Origin: Gammaproteobacteria bacterium | GTDB taxonomy: Bacteria; Pseudomonadota; Gammaproteobacteria; Pseudomonadales; Pseudohongiellaceae | Direction: 5' to 3' | DNA: 64,000 nt | Assembly: GCA_024639905.1 (NCBI GenBank) | Contig: JAHEGE010000001.1 | Location: 186,001-250,000 of the forward strand | Part shown: positions 22,934-60,732 of the stretch, one piece after another | Layout: each line of letters opens with the position of its first letter | Numbering within the stretch: the first letter of the stretch is position 1 | Notes under the pieces: model-generated | Databases searched by the model: none | Told to the model about the DNA's origin: nothing | What the model saw: only the letters and a program-made list of their open reading frames with translations | Translations under genes and position numbers: made by a program

Positions 22934-22977
22934 AAGGGCTTCGTCTCTCAGGTCTCGGGTTCCGTCAAACACCTAGC

Positions 22978-23009
22978 AAAAATGCATCGATGAAAGACCT
23001 GACCCCGGG
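22978..23009. repeat. Dispersed palindromic element, half-unit copy 1
   Basis: 32-nt stretch identical to the right arm of the hairpin at 59446-59478 except for that arm's first base. Read on the minus strand it begins CCCGGGGTCAGGTCTTTCAT, one nucleotide after the TAA stop of the monooxygenase gene (23011). It lies between that stop and the transporter start. Confidence 0.9.
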
Positions 23010-23010
23010 T

Positions 23011-23382
23011 TTAATGGATCGTTTGTGGGGCTTTGGGTTGGGTGCGGCGCTCGGTCTCCGCTTTGTCGCGGGCATCCGCGCGCTGAGCGATGGGCTCGTC
23101 GGGTGAGGCGTAGGTGCGGGTGACGACCTCGCTCTCTAGGTAGAGGCCTAGCTTGCCTAGAAACTCTTCCATATGGGCACTCTGGTAATGACCTTGCAGG
23201 CTGTCGGCATCGGTCCATTCCTGCAACAGCACCACTTGATTCGCCTCGGTAATGCCGGCGAAATACTCATAGCTCACGCAGCCGTTCTCGCGGCGTGACT
23301 GGCCTACCATGGTCTTCATTAGGTCTAACGCCTCGTCTTTAGTGTCGTGCACCAAAAAGAAAGTCGATTGCACCATAATCAT
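23011..23382 (-). CDS. ABM-domain protein, putative quinol monooxygenase
   Basis: 123-residue protein. The first ~95 residues match the antibiotic biosynthesis monooxygenase (ABM/YgiN-like) ferredoxin fold: STFFLVHDTKDEALDLMKTM, RRENGCVSYEYFAGI, VVLLQEWTDADSLQGHYQSA, HMEEFLGKLGLYL. Such proteins oxidise quinols or small aromatics without metal or flavin, and many have unknown roles. The C-terminal ~30 residues (PIAQRADARDKAETERRTQP) are charged and probably unstructured. The gene is followed after 1 nt by the dispersed palindromic repeat. Confidence 0.8.
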   Translation of the reverse strand: MIMVQSTFFLVHDTKDEALDLMKTMVGQSRRENGCVSYEYFAGITEANQVVLLQEWTDADSLQGHYQSAHMEEFLGKLGLYLESEVVTRTYASPDEPIAQRADARDKAETERRTQPKAPQTIH

Positions 23383-35501: not shown

Positions 35502-36524
35502 GTGATTAAAAAGCCTTCGCTGTTGGCTGCGGCCATGATGTCGTTGAGCGTGTCGTTTTTCGTGCAAGCTGCGGACAGTGGCTATGTTGCCCCGCGCACC
35601 GAATTTGGTGCTCCGGACCTGCAGGGCACGTGGTCGATAGCAACGCAGACCAATCTTGAGCGCGCGGAGCGTTTCGGTGGCAAGTTGGTGTTGAGTGAAG
35701 ACGAGGCGCAGAGGATAGAAGCGGCCGTTCGGGCGGGGTTTGAGGCTAGCAATAGGCCTAGCGACCCTAATCGTCAGGCGCCGGGATCGGACAATGTCGG
35801 TGGCTACAACACGTTCTGGATGGATCCTGGGCAGCGCCTAGCGATGGTGAATGGCGAGATACGCACATCAATTATTGTCGATCCCGCAGACGGGAAATTG
35901 CCCTACAGCGAGAAAGGCATGGAGAATTTTCGCGCCGCAATGACGCGCCGCGCCGGCTACGACGGCCCCGAAGTGCGGCCGTTGGGTGAGCGCTGCGTAG
36001 TGGGCTTCGGCTCCACTGGCGGCCCGCCGAAGCTGCCTGTGCTGTATAACAACAATACCCAGATCGTGCAGACCGAAGAGTATGTCGTGCTGCTCGCAGA
36101 AATGAATCACGATGCGCGCGTTATACGCATGAATGCCGATCACGCCCAGCCGCCGATGAATTACTGGATGGGCGATTCGGTTGGGTATTACGAGGATGAG
36201 ACGCTCGTGGTGGTAACGACAAATTTCCACAAGCAGCAAAACCTGCGCTCGTCTCTCGATCATCGATTCTATGGCTCGCCGGAGATGGTTGTTACAGAGC
36301 GCTTCACTCGCACAGCCGATGAGACGATCGAGTATCAGTTCACCGTGGATGATCCGGAAAACTACACGCAGTCGTGGAGCGGGGAATTACCGATGACCGC
36401 GAGCGGCGAGCAGATTTACGAATACGCCTGCCACGAAGGCAACTACGCACTGCCCGGCATCCTCGCCGGCGCCCGCCGCGCCGAAGCAGACGGCACAGAC
36501 TACGCCCCAACCTACTCTCAGTAA
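35502..36524 (+). CDS. Secreted protein of unknown function (paralogue B)
   Basis: 340-residue exported protein, paralogue of the one at 19121-20146 along its whole length (PDLQGTWSIATQTNLERAER, GSDNVGGYNTFWMDPGQRL, IIVDPADGKLPY, GERCVVGFGST, YNNNTQIVQTEE, GDSVGYYEDETLVVVTTNFH, YACHEGNYALPGILAGARR). Signal peptide MIKKPSLLAAAMMSLSVSFF. The start is a GTG at 35502 with a strong AAGGAG Shine-Dalgarno. It lies 30 nt after the acyl-CoA dehydrogenase, so it is likely the last gene of the beta-oxidation operon, which links the family to acyl/lipid use by context only. Its TAA is followed directly by the palindromic repeat array. Confidence 0.78.
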   Translation: MIKKPSLLAAAMMSLSVSFFVQAADSGYVAPRTEFGAPDLQGTWSIATQTNLERAERFGGKLVLSEDEAQRIEAAVRAGFEASNRPSDPNRQAPGSDNVGGYNTFWMDPGQRLAMVNGEIRTSIIVDPADGKLPYSEKGMENFRAAMTRRAGYDGPEVRPLGERCVVGFGSTGGPPKLPVLYNNNTQIVQTEEYVVLLAEMNHDARVIRMNADHAQPPMNYWMGDSVGYYEDETLVVVTTNFHKQQNLRSSLDHRFYGSPEMVVTERFTRTADETIEYQFTVDDPENYTQSWSGELPMTASGEQIYEYACHEGNYALPGILAGARRAEADGTDYAPTYSQ

Positions 36525-36680
36525 CCCGGGGTCAGGTCTTTCATCGATGCATTTTTCTTAGGTGTTTGGTGGTGTGCTTAAGCCCGGGGTCAGGTCTTTC
36601 ATTTGTGCACCTTCGGTAAAACCCGGGGTCAGGTCTTTCATTCATGCACCTTCGGTGCATAAACAAAAGACCTGACCCCT
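36525..36680. repeat. Composite array of the dispersed palindromic element (locus 2)
   Basis: Three direct copies of CCCGGGGTCAGGTCTTTCAT begin at 36525, 36583 and 36622, and an inverted core (AGACCTGACCCC) lies at 36669-36680. The first copy matches the left arm of the 59398 hairpin over 33 nt. The third is followed by a small hairpin ATGCACC-TTC-GGTGCAT (36644-36660). The array fills most of the 186-bp gap between two convergent genes and starts with no spacer after the stop at 36522-36524. Confidence 0.92.
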
Positions 36681-36710
36681 TTGGTGCATAAACGGAGAGC
36701 CGGACGACCG

Positions 36711-38345
36711 CTATCTTAGGCTGGGGAGTTTGTAGCCTTCGGCTTCTAGTTGCGCGCGGATGACCTTCTTATCGATCTTGCCGGTCGAGGTTAGCGGGAT
36801 CGCATCGGTCTGAATGACTTCATCCGGCAGCTGCCATTTGGCGAAAATTTTCTCGCAGTGGTCTAACACTGCCTGCTGATCGAGAGTGTGGCCTTCGGCG
36901 ACGATAACCATCGCCACGGGGCGCTCATCCCACTTCGGGTGCGGCTGCGCCACAACGGCCGCCTGCGCGATGTACGGCAGTGCGACGATGTGGTTTTCGA
37001 GATCGACCGAGGAGATCCATTCGCCGCCAGACTTAATCAAGTCCTTCGAGCGGTCGGCGATCATCAGGTACTGCTCGGAGTCGATCTTGGCGACATCGCC
37101 GGTCACGAGCCAGCCATCGTGGAATTTTTCTGGTTGCGGATCGTTATAGTATTCCGCAGCAATCCAAGGGCCGCGAATACACAGCTCGCCGACAGTCTCC
37201 CCGTCGTGTGGTTGGGGGTTCCAATTTTCGTCGAAGATTTCGATCTCAAGGCCAGGCATCGTGAGGCCGGCTTTGGCGATGTTTTCGAACTGCTGGTCCT
37301 CACTCATAGTCTGCTGAGTGTATTTGGCGCATTTGCGCGACAGCGTGCCGAGCGGATTAGTCTCGGTCATGCCCCAGCCCTGAATCATCTCGACGCCGAG
37401 TTCATCCCAATACCAACGCATCATCGAGACCGGTGGCGCAGAGCCGCCACAGGTGAGGCGGGCGAGCTTGGTAAGGTCGAACTTGCCATCGGCAGCTTCG
37501 ATAGCCGCTTTCACGCCCTGCCAAATTGTCGGCACGCCGGTTGCGATCGTAATATCTTCTTCATGCATAAGCTTGAGGAAATTATCTGGCGTCATGAATC
37601 GGTGTGGCATGACGTGTTTGCATCCCAACATAGAGGCGTTAAACGGCAGGCCCCAGCCCATGGCATGGAACATCGGCACGATGCCGAGCAGAGAATCTAG
37701 CGCCGTAAGGCCCAGCGCGTCGGTAAGACAGCCGGCCATGGTATGCAGGTAAGTTGAGCGATGCGTGTACATTACGCCCTTAGGCTTGCCGGTTGTTCCG
37801 GACGTGTAGCAAAGCCCCATTGGCGAGTTTTCATCGATCTGTGGCCAATCGTATTTTTCTGGCTGGCCTTTAATGAAGTCTTCGTAATCGATCTGATTTT
37901 TAAAGCTGCTCTCGCCGCCCTCGCCGTGCCGGCAAATGACGAGCAGCTCGACGCAGGGGACCTTATCCCAAATCGGCTCCAGCAGTGGCAGCAAGTCTTC
38001 GTCGGCGAAGATCACGCGGTCGTTGGCATGGTTGATGATGTATTCGAGGTCGGTGGGCGAGAGGCGAATATTGAGTGTGTGTAACACGGCGCCCATCGAA
38101 GGTACGCCTTGGTAAAGCTCGAGGTGGCGATGGTTATTCCACATGAAGCTCGCAACGCGATCGCCGACTTCTATACCGTGCTTGTTAAGCGCATGCGCCA
38201 CTTGATTGGCGCGCGTCCACGTTTGGCCTAGCGTCTGGCGGTGCGTGCCATTAAGCTGCGCAGTGACTACCTCGACGTCTGGGTCGAGGATAGCGCCGCG
38301 GCCAAGAATGCGGGATAAAAGCAGTGGTGTCTGTTGCATTGTCAT
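36711..38345 (-). CDS. AMP-forming fatty acyl-CoA synthetase (AlkK type)
   Basis: Activates a medium- or long-chain fatty acid to acyl-CoA with ATP. 544 residues from the ATG at 38345, which has a GGGGGAGA Shine-Dalgarno; a longer reading to 38432 adds a Gln/Arg-rich segment without similarity. Adenylation motifs: MGLCYTSGTTGKPKGVMYTH (A3/P-loop), GWGMTETNPLGTLS, WLVTGDVAKID and IADRSKDLIKSGGEWISSVD, plus the C-terminal catalytic Lys in STGKIDKKVIR. Convergent with the beta-oxidation cluster, it likely supplies its substrate. Confidence 0.93.
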   Translation of the reverse strand: MTMQQTPLLLSRILGRGAILDPDVEVVTAQLNGTHRQTLGQTWTRANQVAHALNKHGIEVGDRVASFMWNNHRHLELYQGVPSMGAVLHTLNIRLSPTDLEYIINHANDRVIFADEDLLPLLEPIWDKVPCVELLVICRHGEGGESSFKNQIDYEDFIKGQPEKYDWPQIDENSPMGLCYTSGTTGKPKGVMYTHRSTYLHTMAGCLTDALGLTALDSLLGIVPMFHAMGWGLPFNASMLGCKHVMPHRFMTPDNFLKLMHEEDITIATGVPTIWQGVKAAIEAADGKFDLTKLARLTCGGSAPPVSMMRWYWDELGVEMIQGWGMTETNPLGTLSRKCAKYTQQTMSEDQQFENIAKAGLTMPGLEIEIFDENWNPQPHDGETVGELCIRGPWIAAEYYNDPQPEKFHDGWLVTGDVAKIDSEQYLMIADRSKDLIKSGGEWISSVDLENHIVALPYIAQAAVVAQPHPKWDERPVAMVIVAEGHTLDQQAVLDHCEKIFAKWQLPDEVIQTDAIPLTSTGKIDKKVIRAQLEAEGYKLPSLR

Positions 38346-58760: not shown

Positions 58761-59396
58761 ATGGATTTACATGATATGCGACGCGAATACTTGATGGGCG
58801 AGCTTCGCCGCAAGGATTTGCACGACGATCCCCACGAGCAGTTTGCGCTGTGGATGAAGCAAGCCTTCGATATGGAAGTCGTCGACCCGCCGGCGATGGT
58901 TGTCGCGACGGTAGATGCAGCTGGCGTGCCAAGCCAGCGCATCGTCTTGCTCAAGCATTTCGATAGCCAAGGTTTCATTTTTTACACCAGCTACTCAAGC
59001 CACAAGGGCAGTGACTTAGATGCTAATCCCAATATCAGCCTGCATTTCCCCTGGCATGCGGTAGAGCGTCAGATAAGGATTACGGGTACGGCTGAGAGGC
59101 TGAGCCGAGAAGAGTCGCAGCGCTATTTTCACAGCCGGCCACGCGGTAGTCAGCTCGCCGCGGCCGTGTCGCCGCAAAGCAGCGTTGTCGACTCACGGGA
59201 AGCCCTCGAAACGGCTTTCGCTGAGCTAGATGCCCAAACCGCTGACAGCGAAGTGCCATTCCCAGAGACGTGGGGCGGCTACCGTGTTCGAGCATCACAG
59301 ATGGAATTCTGGCAAGGCGGCGCCAACCGGCTCCACAATCGCTTCAGATACACGCACACCCAAAACGCCTGGCAAATCGACCGTCTAGCACCATAA
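58761..59396 (+). CDS. pdxH: Pyridoxamine 5'-phosphate oxidase
   Basis: FMN oxidase making pyridoxal 5'-phosphate from PNP/PMP, the last step of B6 synthesis and salvage. 211 residues, normal length. MRREYLMGELRRKDLHDDPH, AMVVATVDAAGVPSQRIVLL (FMN/PLP site), FYTSYSSHKGSDLDANPNIS, LHFPWHAVERQIRITG, SRPRGSQLAAAVSPQS, ETWGGYRVRASQMEFWQGGA and the C-terminal RLHNRFRYT with WQIDRLAP. The stop is followed after 1 nt by the perfect inverted repeat. Confidence 0.98.
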   Translation: MDLHDMRREYLMGELRRKDLHDDPHEQFALWMKQAFDMEVVDPPAMVVATVDAAGVPSQRIVLLKHFDSQGFIFYTSYSSHKGSDLDANPNISLHFPWHAVERQIRITGTAERLSREESQRYFHSRPRGSQLAAAVSPQSSVVDSREALETAFAELDAQTADSEVPFPETWGGYRVRASQMEFWQGGANRLHNRFRYTHTQNAWQIDRLAP

Positions 59397-59397
59397 A

Positions 59398-59478
59398 CCC
59401 GGGGTCAGGTCTTTCATCGATGCATTTTTCCCACGGAACTGGCAGGAAAAATGCATCGATGAAAGACCTGACCCCGGG
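59398..59478. repeat. Perfect inverted repeat, 33-bp arms, filling the pdxH/PFK convergent gap
   Basis: Left arm 59398-59430 starts CCCGGGGTCAGGTCTTTCAT; right arm 59446-59478 is its exact reverse complement; the loop is 15 nt. It is the full palindromic form of the element found at 22978 and 36525. Left end is 1 nt after the pdxH TAA; right end abuts the PFK stop (59479-59481) directly. It could act as a two-way terminator or as an mRNA 3'-end stabiliser. Confidence 0.96.
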
Positions 59479-60732
59479 CTACCATTTCTTGAGTTTTTTC
59501 TTTTCTAGGATGCGCTTTAGGCGCGCGTACTGGGGTAGCCCGTTTTTGTATTCGGGGTAGTCTTCGCCTTGGACTAGTGGTGCGAAATACGCTCTCGCGG
59601 CGTCGGTAATACCGAAGCCGTCGCGGGTGATATAGCTGCGTGGCATCATTTTTTCGACATTAGCTACATCGTTTAGTTTGGCTTCGCCGATACTCCAGCT
59701 GTATTTCTTGCCTTTGCCGCGCACGATGGCCGGCATGACTGCGGTCTTGCCTGCGAGCGCGAATTCGACTGCGGCAGCGCCAACCGCGTAGGCCTGTTCG
59801 ACGTCGGTTTTGGAGGCGATATGCCGCGCCGCGCGTTGTAGGTAGTCAGCCACTGCCCAATGGTATTTGTAGCCGTGTTCGGCTCTGATCATTTCTGCGA
59901 TGAAAGGTGCGACGCCGCCGAGCTGCGCGTGCCCGAAAGCATCTTTGCCGCCGGCTTCCGCGAGGAAACTACCGTCAGGGTTTTGTACGCCTTCTGAGAC
60001 CACGATGGCGCAATAGCCAAACTTCTTCACACAGGCTTTGACCTTTTTCAAAAACTTCGCTCGGTCGAACGCGATCTCAGGAAACAGGATGATATGCGGC
60101 GAGTCGCCTTCTTGTTCCGCAGCGAGTCCTGCTGCCCCTGCGATCCAACCTGCGTGACGTCCCATCACCTCCATGACAAACACCTTGGTTGAGCTCGCAC
60201 ACATCGATGCGACATCTAGGCCTGCCTCGCGGATCGACACGGCAACGTATTTCGCGACAGAGCCAAAACCCGGGCAGTTATCAGTAATGGGGAGATCGTT
60301 ATCGACCGTCTTTGGCACGCCGATGCAATTGATCGGATAACCTTTTTCTATGCTCAGCTGCGCGAATTTGTTCGCAGTATCCTGTGAATCGCCGCCGCCG
60401 TTGTACAGAAAATAGCGAATATTATGCGCTTTAAACACCTCGATGAGCCGCTCATACTCGCGCGTGTTCTCCGCGTAAGACTTCAATTTGTACCGACAAG
60501 AACCGAAAGCGCCGGCGGGCGTCGAGCGCAGCGCCGCGATCGTCTTCGCCGACTCCTTGTTGGTGTCGATGAGCTCTTCGTTCAACGCGCCAACGATGCC
60601 ATTCAGCCCCGCATAGACTTTGCCGATTCTGTCCTTATGCTTGCGTGCAGTTTCAATAACGCCGCAGGCGCTGGCATTAATAACGGCGGTAACGCCGCCA
60701 GATTGGGCGTAAAAAAGATTGGCTTTGCTCAT
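59479..60732 (-). CDS. 6-phosphofructokinase, probably PPi-dependent
   Basis: Phosphorylates fructose-6-P to fructose-1,6-bisphosphate. 417 residues with the PFKA fold: NLFYAQSGGVTAVINAS, GLNGIVGAL, LYNGGGDSQDTANKFA, IGVPKTVDNDLPITDNCPG, VFVMEVMGRHAGWIAGAAGL, VVSEGVQNP and GGVAPFIAEMI. In the nucleotide loop the ATP-PFK GGDGS is GGGDS (Asp at the Gly104 position) and the next site is PKTVDND with Lys at position 124; both are marks of PPi-using, reversible enzymes. Hence a PPi-dependent enzyme is likely (inference). No EMP partner gene is nearby except pgi 46 kb away. Confidence 0.88.
   Translation of the reverse strand: MSKANLFYAQSGGVTAVINASACGVIETARKHKDRIGKVYAGLNGIVGALNEELIDTNKESAKTIAALRSTPAGAFGSCRYKLKSYAENTREYERLIEVFKAHNIRYFLYNGGGDSQDTANKFAQLSIEKGYPINCIGVPKTVDNDLPITDNCPGFGSVAKYVAVSIREAGLDVASMCASSTKVFVMEVMGRHAGWIAGAAGLAAEQEGDSPHIILFPEIAFDRAKFLKKVKACVKKFGYCAIVVSEGVQNPDGSFLAEAGGKDAFGHAQLGGVAPFIAEMIRAEHGYKYHWAVADYLQRAARHIASKTDVEQAYAVGAAAVEFALAGKTAVMPAIVRGKGKKYSWSIGEAKLNDVANVEKMMPRSYITRDGFGITDAARAYFAPLVQGEDYPEYKNGLPQYARLKRILEKKKLKKW

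Follow-up and report, generated by a model that had tools for sequence, protein, structure and literature searches.

What places a short dispersed repeat immediately behind one stop codon after another is the question raised by the 64,000-nucleotide stretch of gammaproteobacterial DNA analyzed here, referred to below as the window. The window carries six exact copies of the 20-mer CCCGGGGTCAGGTCTTTCAT, where none is expected and none of 100 shuffled sequences reaches that number. As the initial annotation had stated, the core of the element lies 0 to 1 nt past the stops of four genes and points away from each of them, namely, the monooxygenase gene (minus strand, 1 nt), paralogue B (0 nt), pdxH (1 nt), and the phosphofructokinase (PFK) gene (minus strand, 0 nt) (Table 1). 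The palindrome at 59398 to 59478 has a predicted RNA hairpin of -67.9 kcal/mol (z score, -13.8). Paralogue B (35535 to 36524) is without a Pfam match, and an Rfam search confined to window positions 36400 to 36800 gave one weak miRNA match far under the cutoff, which we take as chance. As set out below, the sequences point to a short mobile repeat that was probably spread in this genome by a single-strand-cutting enzyme and that often serves as the stop signal of the adjoining gene.

Table 1. Element copies and adjoining genes in the window
Feature	Position	Strand	Remarks
Long-type single copy, arm CCCGGGGTCAGGTCTTTCATCGATGCATTTTT plus variable hairpin part	22962..23009	-	Begins 1 nt past stop of 23011-23382 (-)
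Antibiotic biosynthesis monooxygenase-domain gene	23011..23382	-	TAA at element edge (TAA A CCCGGGG); Pfam PF03992, 48.9 bits (cutoff, 23.1)
Paralogue B	35535..36524 (longer start 35502 possible)	+	TAA directly before CCCGGGG
Long-type single copy, 0 nt from paralogue B stop	36525..36572	+	
Short-type copy (CATTTGTGCACCTTCGG), in array behind the flush copy at 36525	36583..36621	+	
Short-type palindrome (GGGGTCAGG...TGCACCTTCGGTGCA...CCTGACCCC), same array	36622..36679	+	Minus-strand arm at 36666-36679
pdxH (pyridoxamine 5'-phosphate oxidase)	58761..59396	+	TAA, then A CCCGGGG; length equal in relatives G024, G042, and G078
Full 81-nt palindromic element, flush with both convergent genes pdxH and PFK	59398..59478	.	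Arms of about 34 nt
PFK gene	59479..60732	-	TAG directly before CCCGGGG; 2 codons shorter than in G024, G042, and G078; final 30 codons A/C-shifted

The window belongs to a genome (G000) of 2.67 Mb in 26 contigs (C3, C9, C15, C26, and others), in which the exact 17-mer GGGGTCAGGTCTTTCAT occurs 93 times and its reversed control not once. The 14-mer GGGGTCAGGTCTTT, allowing up to one mismatch, has 150 copies genome-wide against 1 for the control; surroundings were analyzed for the 127 exact 14-mer copies, at least three further copies lying outside the stretches analyzed. A pattern search across the class found a 17-mer match in 8 of 369 genomes including G000, with no more than four copies in any other, and of the 83 other genomes of the genus that were searched, two only contain the 17-mer. 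It is missing from G024, G042, G078, and G060, which have the top four PFK scores among the relatives.

Copies recur in three arrangements: long-type single copies, long-type palindromes, and the short type. A long-type single copy consists of the arm (A)AACCCGGGGTCAGGTCTTTCATCGATGCATTTTT and about 16 variable bases, which tend towards CCYAYG...GYGGG, for a total of about 48 nt. The long-type palindrome, of about 80 nt and often located between two convergent genes, has two arms around a variable center, and this center can differ greatly between near-identical arms (for example, at window positions 59432 to 59444). The short type is GGGGTCAGGTCTTTYRTTYATGCACC with a small loop and occurs mostly in arrays. 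GTAG, which overlaps the start of GGGGTCAGG, is found at the start of some short-type copies only, the long type having AA(A)CCCGGGG instead. Most copies that were not counted at stops have the edge AA(A)CCC as well (at position -5, 63 of 72 have A; at -6, 56 do), and in these a T before the leading A residues is not enriched. By its sequence, the element thus includes the leading A residues. At five loci (C15:33413, C9:71172, C26:353888, C26:273722, and C3:91157, in loci L033, L051, L047, L044, and L053, respectively), a stop with TAACCC(G..) comes first and a complete arm follows 6 to 12 nt on, an arrangement suggesting that a later copy entered the border of a flush copy already present. 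Read in reverse, the arm gives ATGAAAGACCTGACCCC, and the gene caller puts the start codons of a few genes within elements (for example, in L033 between C15:24699 and 24753 and in L051 at about C9:60160); the repeat may supply gene starts too.

One Y1 transposase gene was found in G000 (C26:311903-312742, minus strand). Its product matches Pfam PF01797 (Y1_Tnp) with 39.2 bits (cutoff, 23) and the NCBIfam model REP_Tyr_transpos with 71.4 bits, below the curated cutoff of 80. A palindromic copy of the element lies upstream of this gene and ends 26 nt ahead of the start codon; downstream, there is no inverted copy in the 500 nt past the stop, the nearest being about 1.2 kb on. The suggestion of the initial annotation that this might be a RAYT-type mobile repeat is thus backed by a single Y1 gene with an adjacent copy, but the element is found on the 5' side of the gene only. 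Thirty-four of the 93 copies lie near the transposase gene (312 kb), at 252 to 374 kb of C26 and hence within about 60 kb of it, an interval that was picked after the positions were seen.

Relatives of the transposase were found at 26 loci in other bacteria, mostly Burkholderiales and other Betaproteobacteria, with 28 to 57% identity. At 13 or more of these loci, GGGTCAGG stands no more than 60 nt before the match, and among the motifs listed, several loci also have an inverted copy past the gene (for example, L110, L113, and L115). Within the same genus, four genomes have a near relative of the transposase (43 to 55% identity), and three of these four closest RAYTs (L139, L141, and L142, not L140) have GGGTCAGG on both sides, the downstream copy being inverted. 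In G024, G042, G078, and G060, the transposase gene has no match. The sequence GGGGTCAG fits the GGGGWSAS consensus described for such repeats (PMC3733652); our copies were found with a pattern containing it, and it also stands ahead of many related RAYT genes. In Roseateles subflavus, the 6.9 kb around one RAYT relative (L125, contig2:688013-694870) contain 27 GGGTCAG/CTGACCC motifs and, by coordinates, eight of the nine exact pattern matches of that genome, an extreme local cluster. In G000, the element looks like the terminal-inverted-repeat (TIR) family of a RAYT-like Y1/HUH transposase. Its absence from the closest relatives, its rarity in the genus, and its clustering near the transposase gene suggest that a RAYT-type repeat has spread in a burst limited to this lineage, and from the association with the gene, the burst, and the clustering, we infer that this enzyme mobilized the element.

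We counted an arm as flush when 0 to 2 nt separate the stop from CCC, and a long-type arm as outermost when no other copy lies within 200 nt upstream, leaving out arms with less than 260 nt of sequence. Among 82 outermost long arms, 58 follow a gene on the same strand, and 39 of these are flush, as judged by gene calls from a home-made hexamer scorer that misses some short genes and leaves about 10 further ORFs with flush ends among the nonflush cases. Adjacency to the stop at "every gene end it meets," as the initial annotation had it, is therefore true of the window but not of the genome, where 19 of the 58 fall outside the flush count (some few do end a short ORF) and the other 24 arms face the start of a gene on the opposite strand. 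Of the 127 exact 14-mers, 85 have the 3' end of a same-strand gene as their nearest left neighbor, and in 43 of these 85 the stop comes 3 to 5 nt before GGGG, that is, 0 to 2 nt before the usual CCC. Random distances to stops or a small number of copies, the two outcomes named at the outset as speaking against the observation, are at odds with these 43 flush ends and with the 93 exact 17-mers. The stop is TAA at 40 of the 43 flush ends, compared with 126 of 287 genes without the element, a preference explained by the leading A residues of the element following a T.

In principle, such a pattern could be plain REP or TIR behavior, with random insertion and purifying selection leaving the flush stops and the composition described below as by-products. 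The termini of GTAG REPs "often provide" the TAG stop of flanking ORFs (PMC3733652), so that the initial annotation, which had held that REPs do not sit flush with stops, drew the contrast too strongly, and TIR families of RAYT-like genes with GGGGWSAS are known as well. Yet the downstream spacers of element-free genes lead one to expect 3.7% flush arms when weighted by length, or 12% as a per-gene mean, against the 39 of 58 found, and purifying selection by itself would not produce a base shift that is derived and strand specific, which makes this reading unlikely in our judgment. Narrower candidates were also tried and rejected. A general habit of the genome to have CCC after stops is seen in only 13 of the 287 genes not counted as element-bearing, several of which lie just upstream of an element. 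A preexisting AACCC target at stops finds no counterpart among the flush genes, where no listed stop of a relative has CCC or ACCC next, and AA(A)CCC also stands before most copies that are not at stops; for the nonflush gene C15_27706, one relative reads TAACCCC. A C|T cleavage site was considered too, and a C precedes TAA in 22 of 37 cases versus 59 of 116 controls, no clear difference.

Is the stop next to the element the one that the gene had before? Orthologues were compared in stretches of G024 and G042 only, which among the window genes covered pdxH and PFK and not the monooxygenase gene, and in which paralogue B had distant matches only (37 to 38% identity); the sets of flush genes used here and in the comparisons of composition mix long- and short-type elements. 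Relative to G042, 11 of 17 flush genes are shorter, 5 are unchanged, and 1 is longer, versus 4 shortened genes among 34 without an element. With G024, 11 of 18 are shorter and 6 unchanged, versus 3 shortened among 32 controls, and the excess of shortened flush genes has a P value of about 2e-4. The trimmed genes have lost 1 to 7 codons relative to their orthologues, and the single lengthened one is 4 codons longer. In most comparable cases, the sequences thus indicate that the stop is not the old stop of the gene but is made by the edge of the element. Of the two options offered initially, an insertion preference for sites next to stops or a role as a 3'-end module, the adjacency to stops holds, but the element mostly does not lie behind the old stop, its edge making a new one in genes of which 11 of 17 are trimmed.

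Convergent genes illustrate the rearrangement. In one pair, the genes overlap by 4 nt in the relatives and are 79 nt apart in G000, where they have lost one and three codons. Between pdxH and PFK, the relatives have a spacer of 5 nt, and G000 has a gap of 82 nt, which equals the element and one base; here only PFK is shortened (Table 1). Because PFK DNA identity to the nearest relatives is about 79%, spacer alignments are rough, and exact deletion sizes are not claimed. At C15:19070-19120 (L032), both G024 and G042 have a GC-rich hairpin and a T run, resembling a terminator, past the gene, and G000 has a single copy of the element instead.

The DNA on the 5' side of the arm is also shifted in composition. 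Across the final 20 nt of coding sequence, 38 flush genes have a C content of 0.41 and a G content of 0.20, compared with 0.28 and 0.30 for 165 controls; farther away, the difference diminishes. At positions -38 to -8 of the arm strand, the fraction of A and C exceeds 0.5 at all 39 flush long arms (mean, 0.66 versus 0.49 in controls; P = 3e-19), at 16 of the 19 long arms that follow a gene less closely (0.63 versus 0.51), and at 19 of the 24 arms beside opposite-strand gene starts (3 below; 0.64 versus 0.47; P = 5e-8), the P values being approximate because controls were drawn with replacement. The gradient, with G and T depleted, extends about 100 to 200 nt 5' of flush long arms. At -110 to -70, it stands at 0.58 versus 0.50 in the flush class and at 0.52 and 0.50 in the other two classes, and for arms beside opposite-strand gene starts, a strong skew reaches no further than about 40 nt. 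In 28 single copies, A/C in the first 35 nt is 0.65 on the left side and 0.56 on the right. The flanks of nonflush copies are A/C-rich too, and the proximal skew is also present in stretches without a called gene. Short-type arms show little skew (A/C of 0.56 at 7 flush arms, P = 0.06, and of 0.51 at 6 arms near 3' ends), and the arm-strand flanks of two arrays bearing them (C26:302698 and 303366, in L045) are strongly G/T-rich, with A/C of 0.15 at 302698. At one of the L045 arrays, the opposite strand carries a gene start that is A/C-rich in the relatives too. Elsewhere, the flanks of six isolated E. coli REPs (in 200 kb) have no skew, and both G083 (one copy in 400 kb) and Roseateles/Paucibacter (9 and 0 pattern matches, 8 of the 9 near the Roseateles RAYT) have too few copies for a comparison of flanks. 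Within these sequences, the A/C scar is known from one genome only, G000.

Comparison with relatives indicates that the shift arose in this lineage, its polarity (a change in G000 and not in the relatives) being assigned by parsimony and, for PFK alone, also by 29 relatives. At third positions in the last 30 nt of 16 flush genes, 57 changes from G/T to A/C stand against 7 in the opposite direction between G042 and G000, versus 48:47 in 26 controls; with G024 as the comparison, the flush ratio is 59:10. The same flush genes have a third-position ratio of 650:622 at 300 to 900 nt out. First and second positions in the last 30 nt are affected as well (25:9 in flush genes versus 16:25 in controls, with G042), and amino acid differences in the last ten codons amount to 0.33 versus 0.17. 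Counted per gene within 60 nt, 13 flush genes lean to A/C and 2 in the opposite direction with G042 (14 and 3 with G024), and among controls the numbers of genes are 9 and 14 (9 and 11 with G024). Over the last 30 codons of PFK, third-position A/C is 0.77 in G000 and averages 0.53 in the 29 relatives (maximum, 0.69), with the same direction in 29 of 29. Beside opposite-strand gene starts, coding-strand changes from A/C to G/T against the reverse number 36:28 and 43:35 in six genes, a lean in the expected direction that is not decisive, one gene of class A being counted three times. Near the arm, T is depleted at least as much as G; T>C, G>C, G>A, and some T>A all contribute, so the shift is not one simple transition.

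These polarities bear on the idea that the skew and the flush stops are older than the insertions, the transposase having a preference for sites 3' of A/C-rich, unstructured single-stranded DNA and for TAA-like sites. IS200/IS605 transposition does use single-stranded DNA (PMC8266576), and the A/C-rich flanks of nonflush copies would fit such a preference. The orthologous ends in the relatives, however, are without the skew (third-position A/C in the last 30 nt of 0.43 to 0.46, versus 0.79 in the flush genes of G000), the genes of the relatives extend 1 to 7 codons further in 11 of 17 cases, and their listed stops at the flush genes are not followed by CCC or ACCC. We therefore regard a target preference of this kind as quite unlikely.

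An explanation thus has to cover what the comparisons of sequence establish: the copies and their flushness, the trimmed genes, and an A/C gradient that is derived in this genome at gene ends and linked, close to the arm, to arm orientation. A cut by an HUH enzyme affects a single strand and yields two ends, one with a 5' phosphotyrosine and one with a free 3' OH; in vitro, TnpAREP cleaves 5' or 3' of REP (PMC8266576). In the model that we propose, the element would be a nonautonomous inverted repeat mobilized by the one RAYT-like HUH transposase of the genome, with the arm (A)AACCCGGGGTCAGGTCTTTCATCGATGCATTTTT as the recognition part. At gene 3' ends, its A residues would form TAA behind a T, and gene ends bearing the element would be tolerated or slightly shortened. 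The transposase would then nick the arm strand repeatedly at the 5' border, so that the flank would end in a free 3' OH; loss of that end would expose the opposite strand, and damage to the A and C of that strand, together with A or C being inserted on refilling, would turn G/T into A/C on the arm strand. Nicking and resynthesis with errors would account for a gradient that is one-sided, strand specific, and fading with distance, and the same loss of ends would eat the spacer DNA up to the gene end, where only junctions yielding a stop would survive. To the model as a whole, in which recurrent nicking at the 5' border of a RAYT-mobilized inverted repeat, 3'-end loss, and error-prone refilling erode the spacer to the stop, we tentatively give a little less than an even chance. 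That a RAYT-type HUH transposase is a local mutator, its nicking turning G/T to A/C over 100 to 200 nt, the spacer being lost until the element is the stop, and host C termini being reshaped, is possible but rather doubtful.

Several observations run against the nicking model. Only flush genes have the distal part of the gradient, as would also be expected if selection acted on the 3' end of the mRNA; short-type arms share the core yet show little skew, and the two L045 arrays are skewed the other way; the comparison with relatives beside opposite-strand gene starts is not decisive; no second genome shows the scar; the RAYT of G000 is without a 3' TIR; and some flush genes are unchanged or longer. 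Selection instead of mutation would mean that the element replaced the old terminator and that the coding end evolved into an unstructured, C-rich, G-poor RNA, rut-like or insulating the hairpin, that aids Rho or 3'-end processing. The gradient at -110 to -70, pronounced in flush genes, which are transcribed towards the element, and near absent in the other classes, argues for this, as does C15:19103, where the relatives have an apparent intrinsic terminator in place of the element. On the other hand, the proximal skew is about as strong beside the starts of opposite-strand genes and where no gene is called, and T falls at least as much as G, although rut sites are not known to require T depletion. 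Moreover, the last ten codons have about twice as many amino acid differences as in controls, which purely synonymous adjustment would not yield, and selection on the message thus seems to us unlikely, if still a serious contender. R-loop damage of the nontemplate strand was also considered and was rejected because the coding strand is the one that gains C.

How REP and TIR repeats move and why they adjoin gene ends is an open question (the mechanisms of REP dissemination have been called poorly understood [PMC8266576]), and the flanks described here carry a readable record in their graded, strand-specific base shift and in the trimmed genes. If the nicking model is true, the sites and the frequency of cutting could be read from the composition of the DNA next to each repeat, bacterial genes would be subject to targeted mutation by a transposase present in one copy, and erosion, not a choice of targets that seeks stop codons, would lie behind the flush-stop pattern. 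A search of the open-access literature for altered mutation or base composition near REPs, and for mutagenic nicking by HUH enzymes, returned nothing relevant among the sources accessible to it, which is not proof of absence.

Among known systems, the element shares the Y1_Tnp catalytic domain of its putative partner with the IS200/IS605 (Y1 HUH) transposons; it differs from them in having long inverted repeats and a single-copy enzyme with repeats dispersed elsewhere. No insertion-target motif was found at the empty sites of the relatives. Another type of noncoding inverted-repeat element located between genes, of about 80 nt, is represented by the MITEs of DDE transposases (IS630-type and others). 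These are named in PMC3733652 and PMC2817692, and they differ from the present case, in which the repeat is probably paired with an enzyme of the Y1 type. GTAG REPs, REPINs, and BIMEs with their RAYTs resemble the element in being short palindromes with inverted pairs and 3' intergenic sites, in edges that supply stop codons, and in the enrichment of copies near the transposase gene (PMC2817692, PMC3733652, PMC3116915), and members of several REP families lie near or overlap genes (PMC3733652). Unlike GTAG REPs, the long type has no GTAG tag and carries AA(A)CCCGGGG, GTAG being confined to some short-type copies. The closest likeness is to the TIR families associated with TIRtrons and TIRYTs. 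TIRtrons are RAYT-like genes flanked by long TIRs, some of which share GGGGWSAS and some of which have repeat families (PMC3733652), and the element is like them in its RAYT-like gene, in a long inverted repeat that fits the consensus, and in moderately abundant repeats occurring as singles, dimers, and clusters. It differs in that the RAYT has an upstream copy only, in that TAA and not TAG is supplied, and in its A/C-skewed 5' flank, of which the TIRtron descriptions available from PMC3733652 make no mention. On sequence grounds, the most fitting place for the element is in a new family of the TIRtron kind, one in which the 3' TIR is missing. That the ends of REPs can supply stop codons has been published before; as far as the sources cited here extend, the strand-specific A/C scar and the trimmed genes are apparently new.
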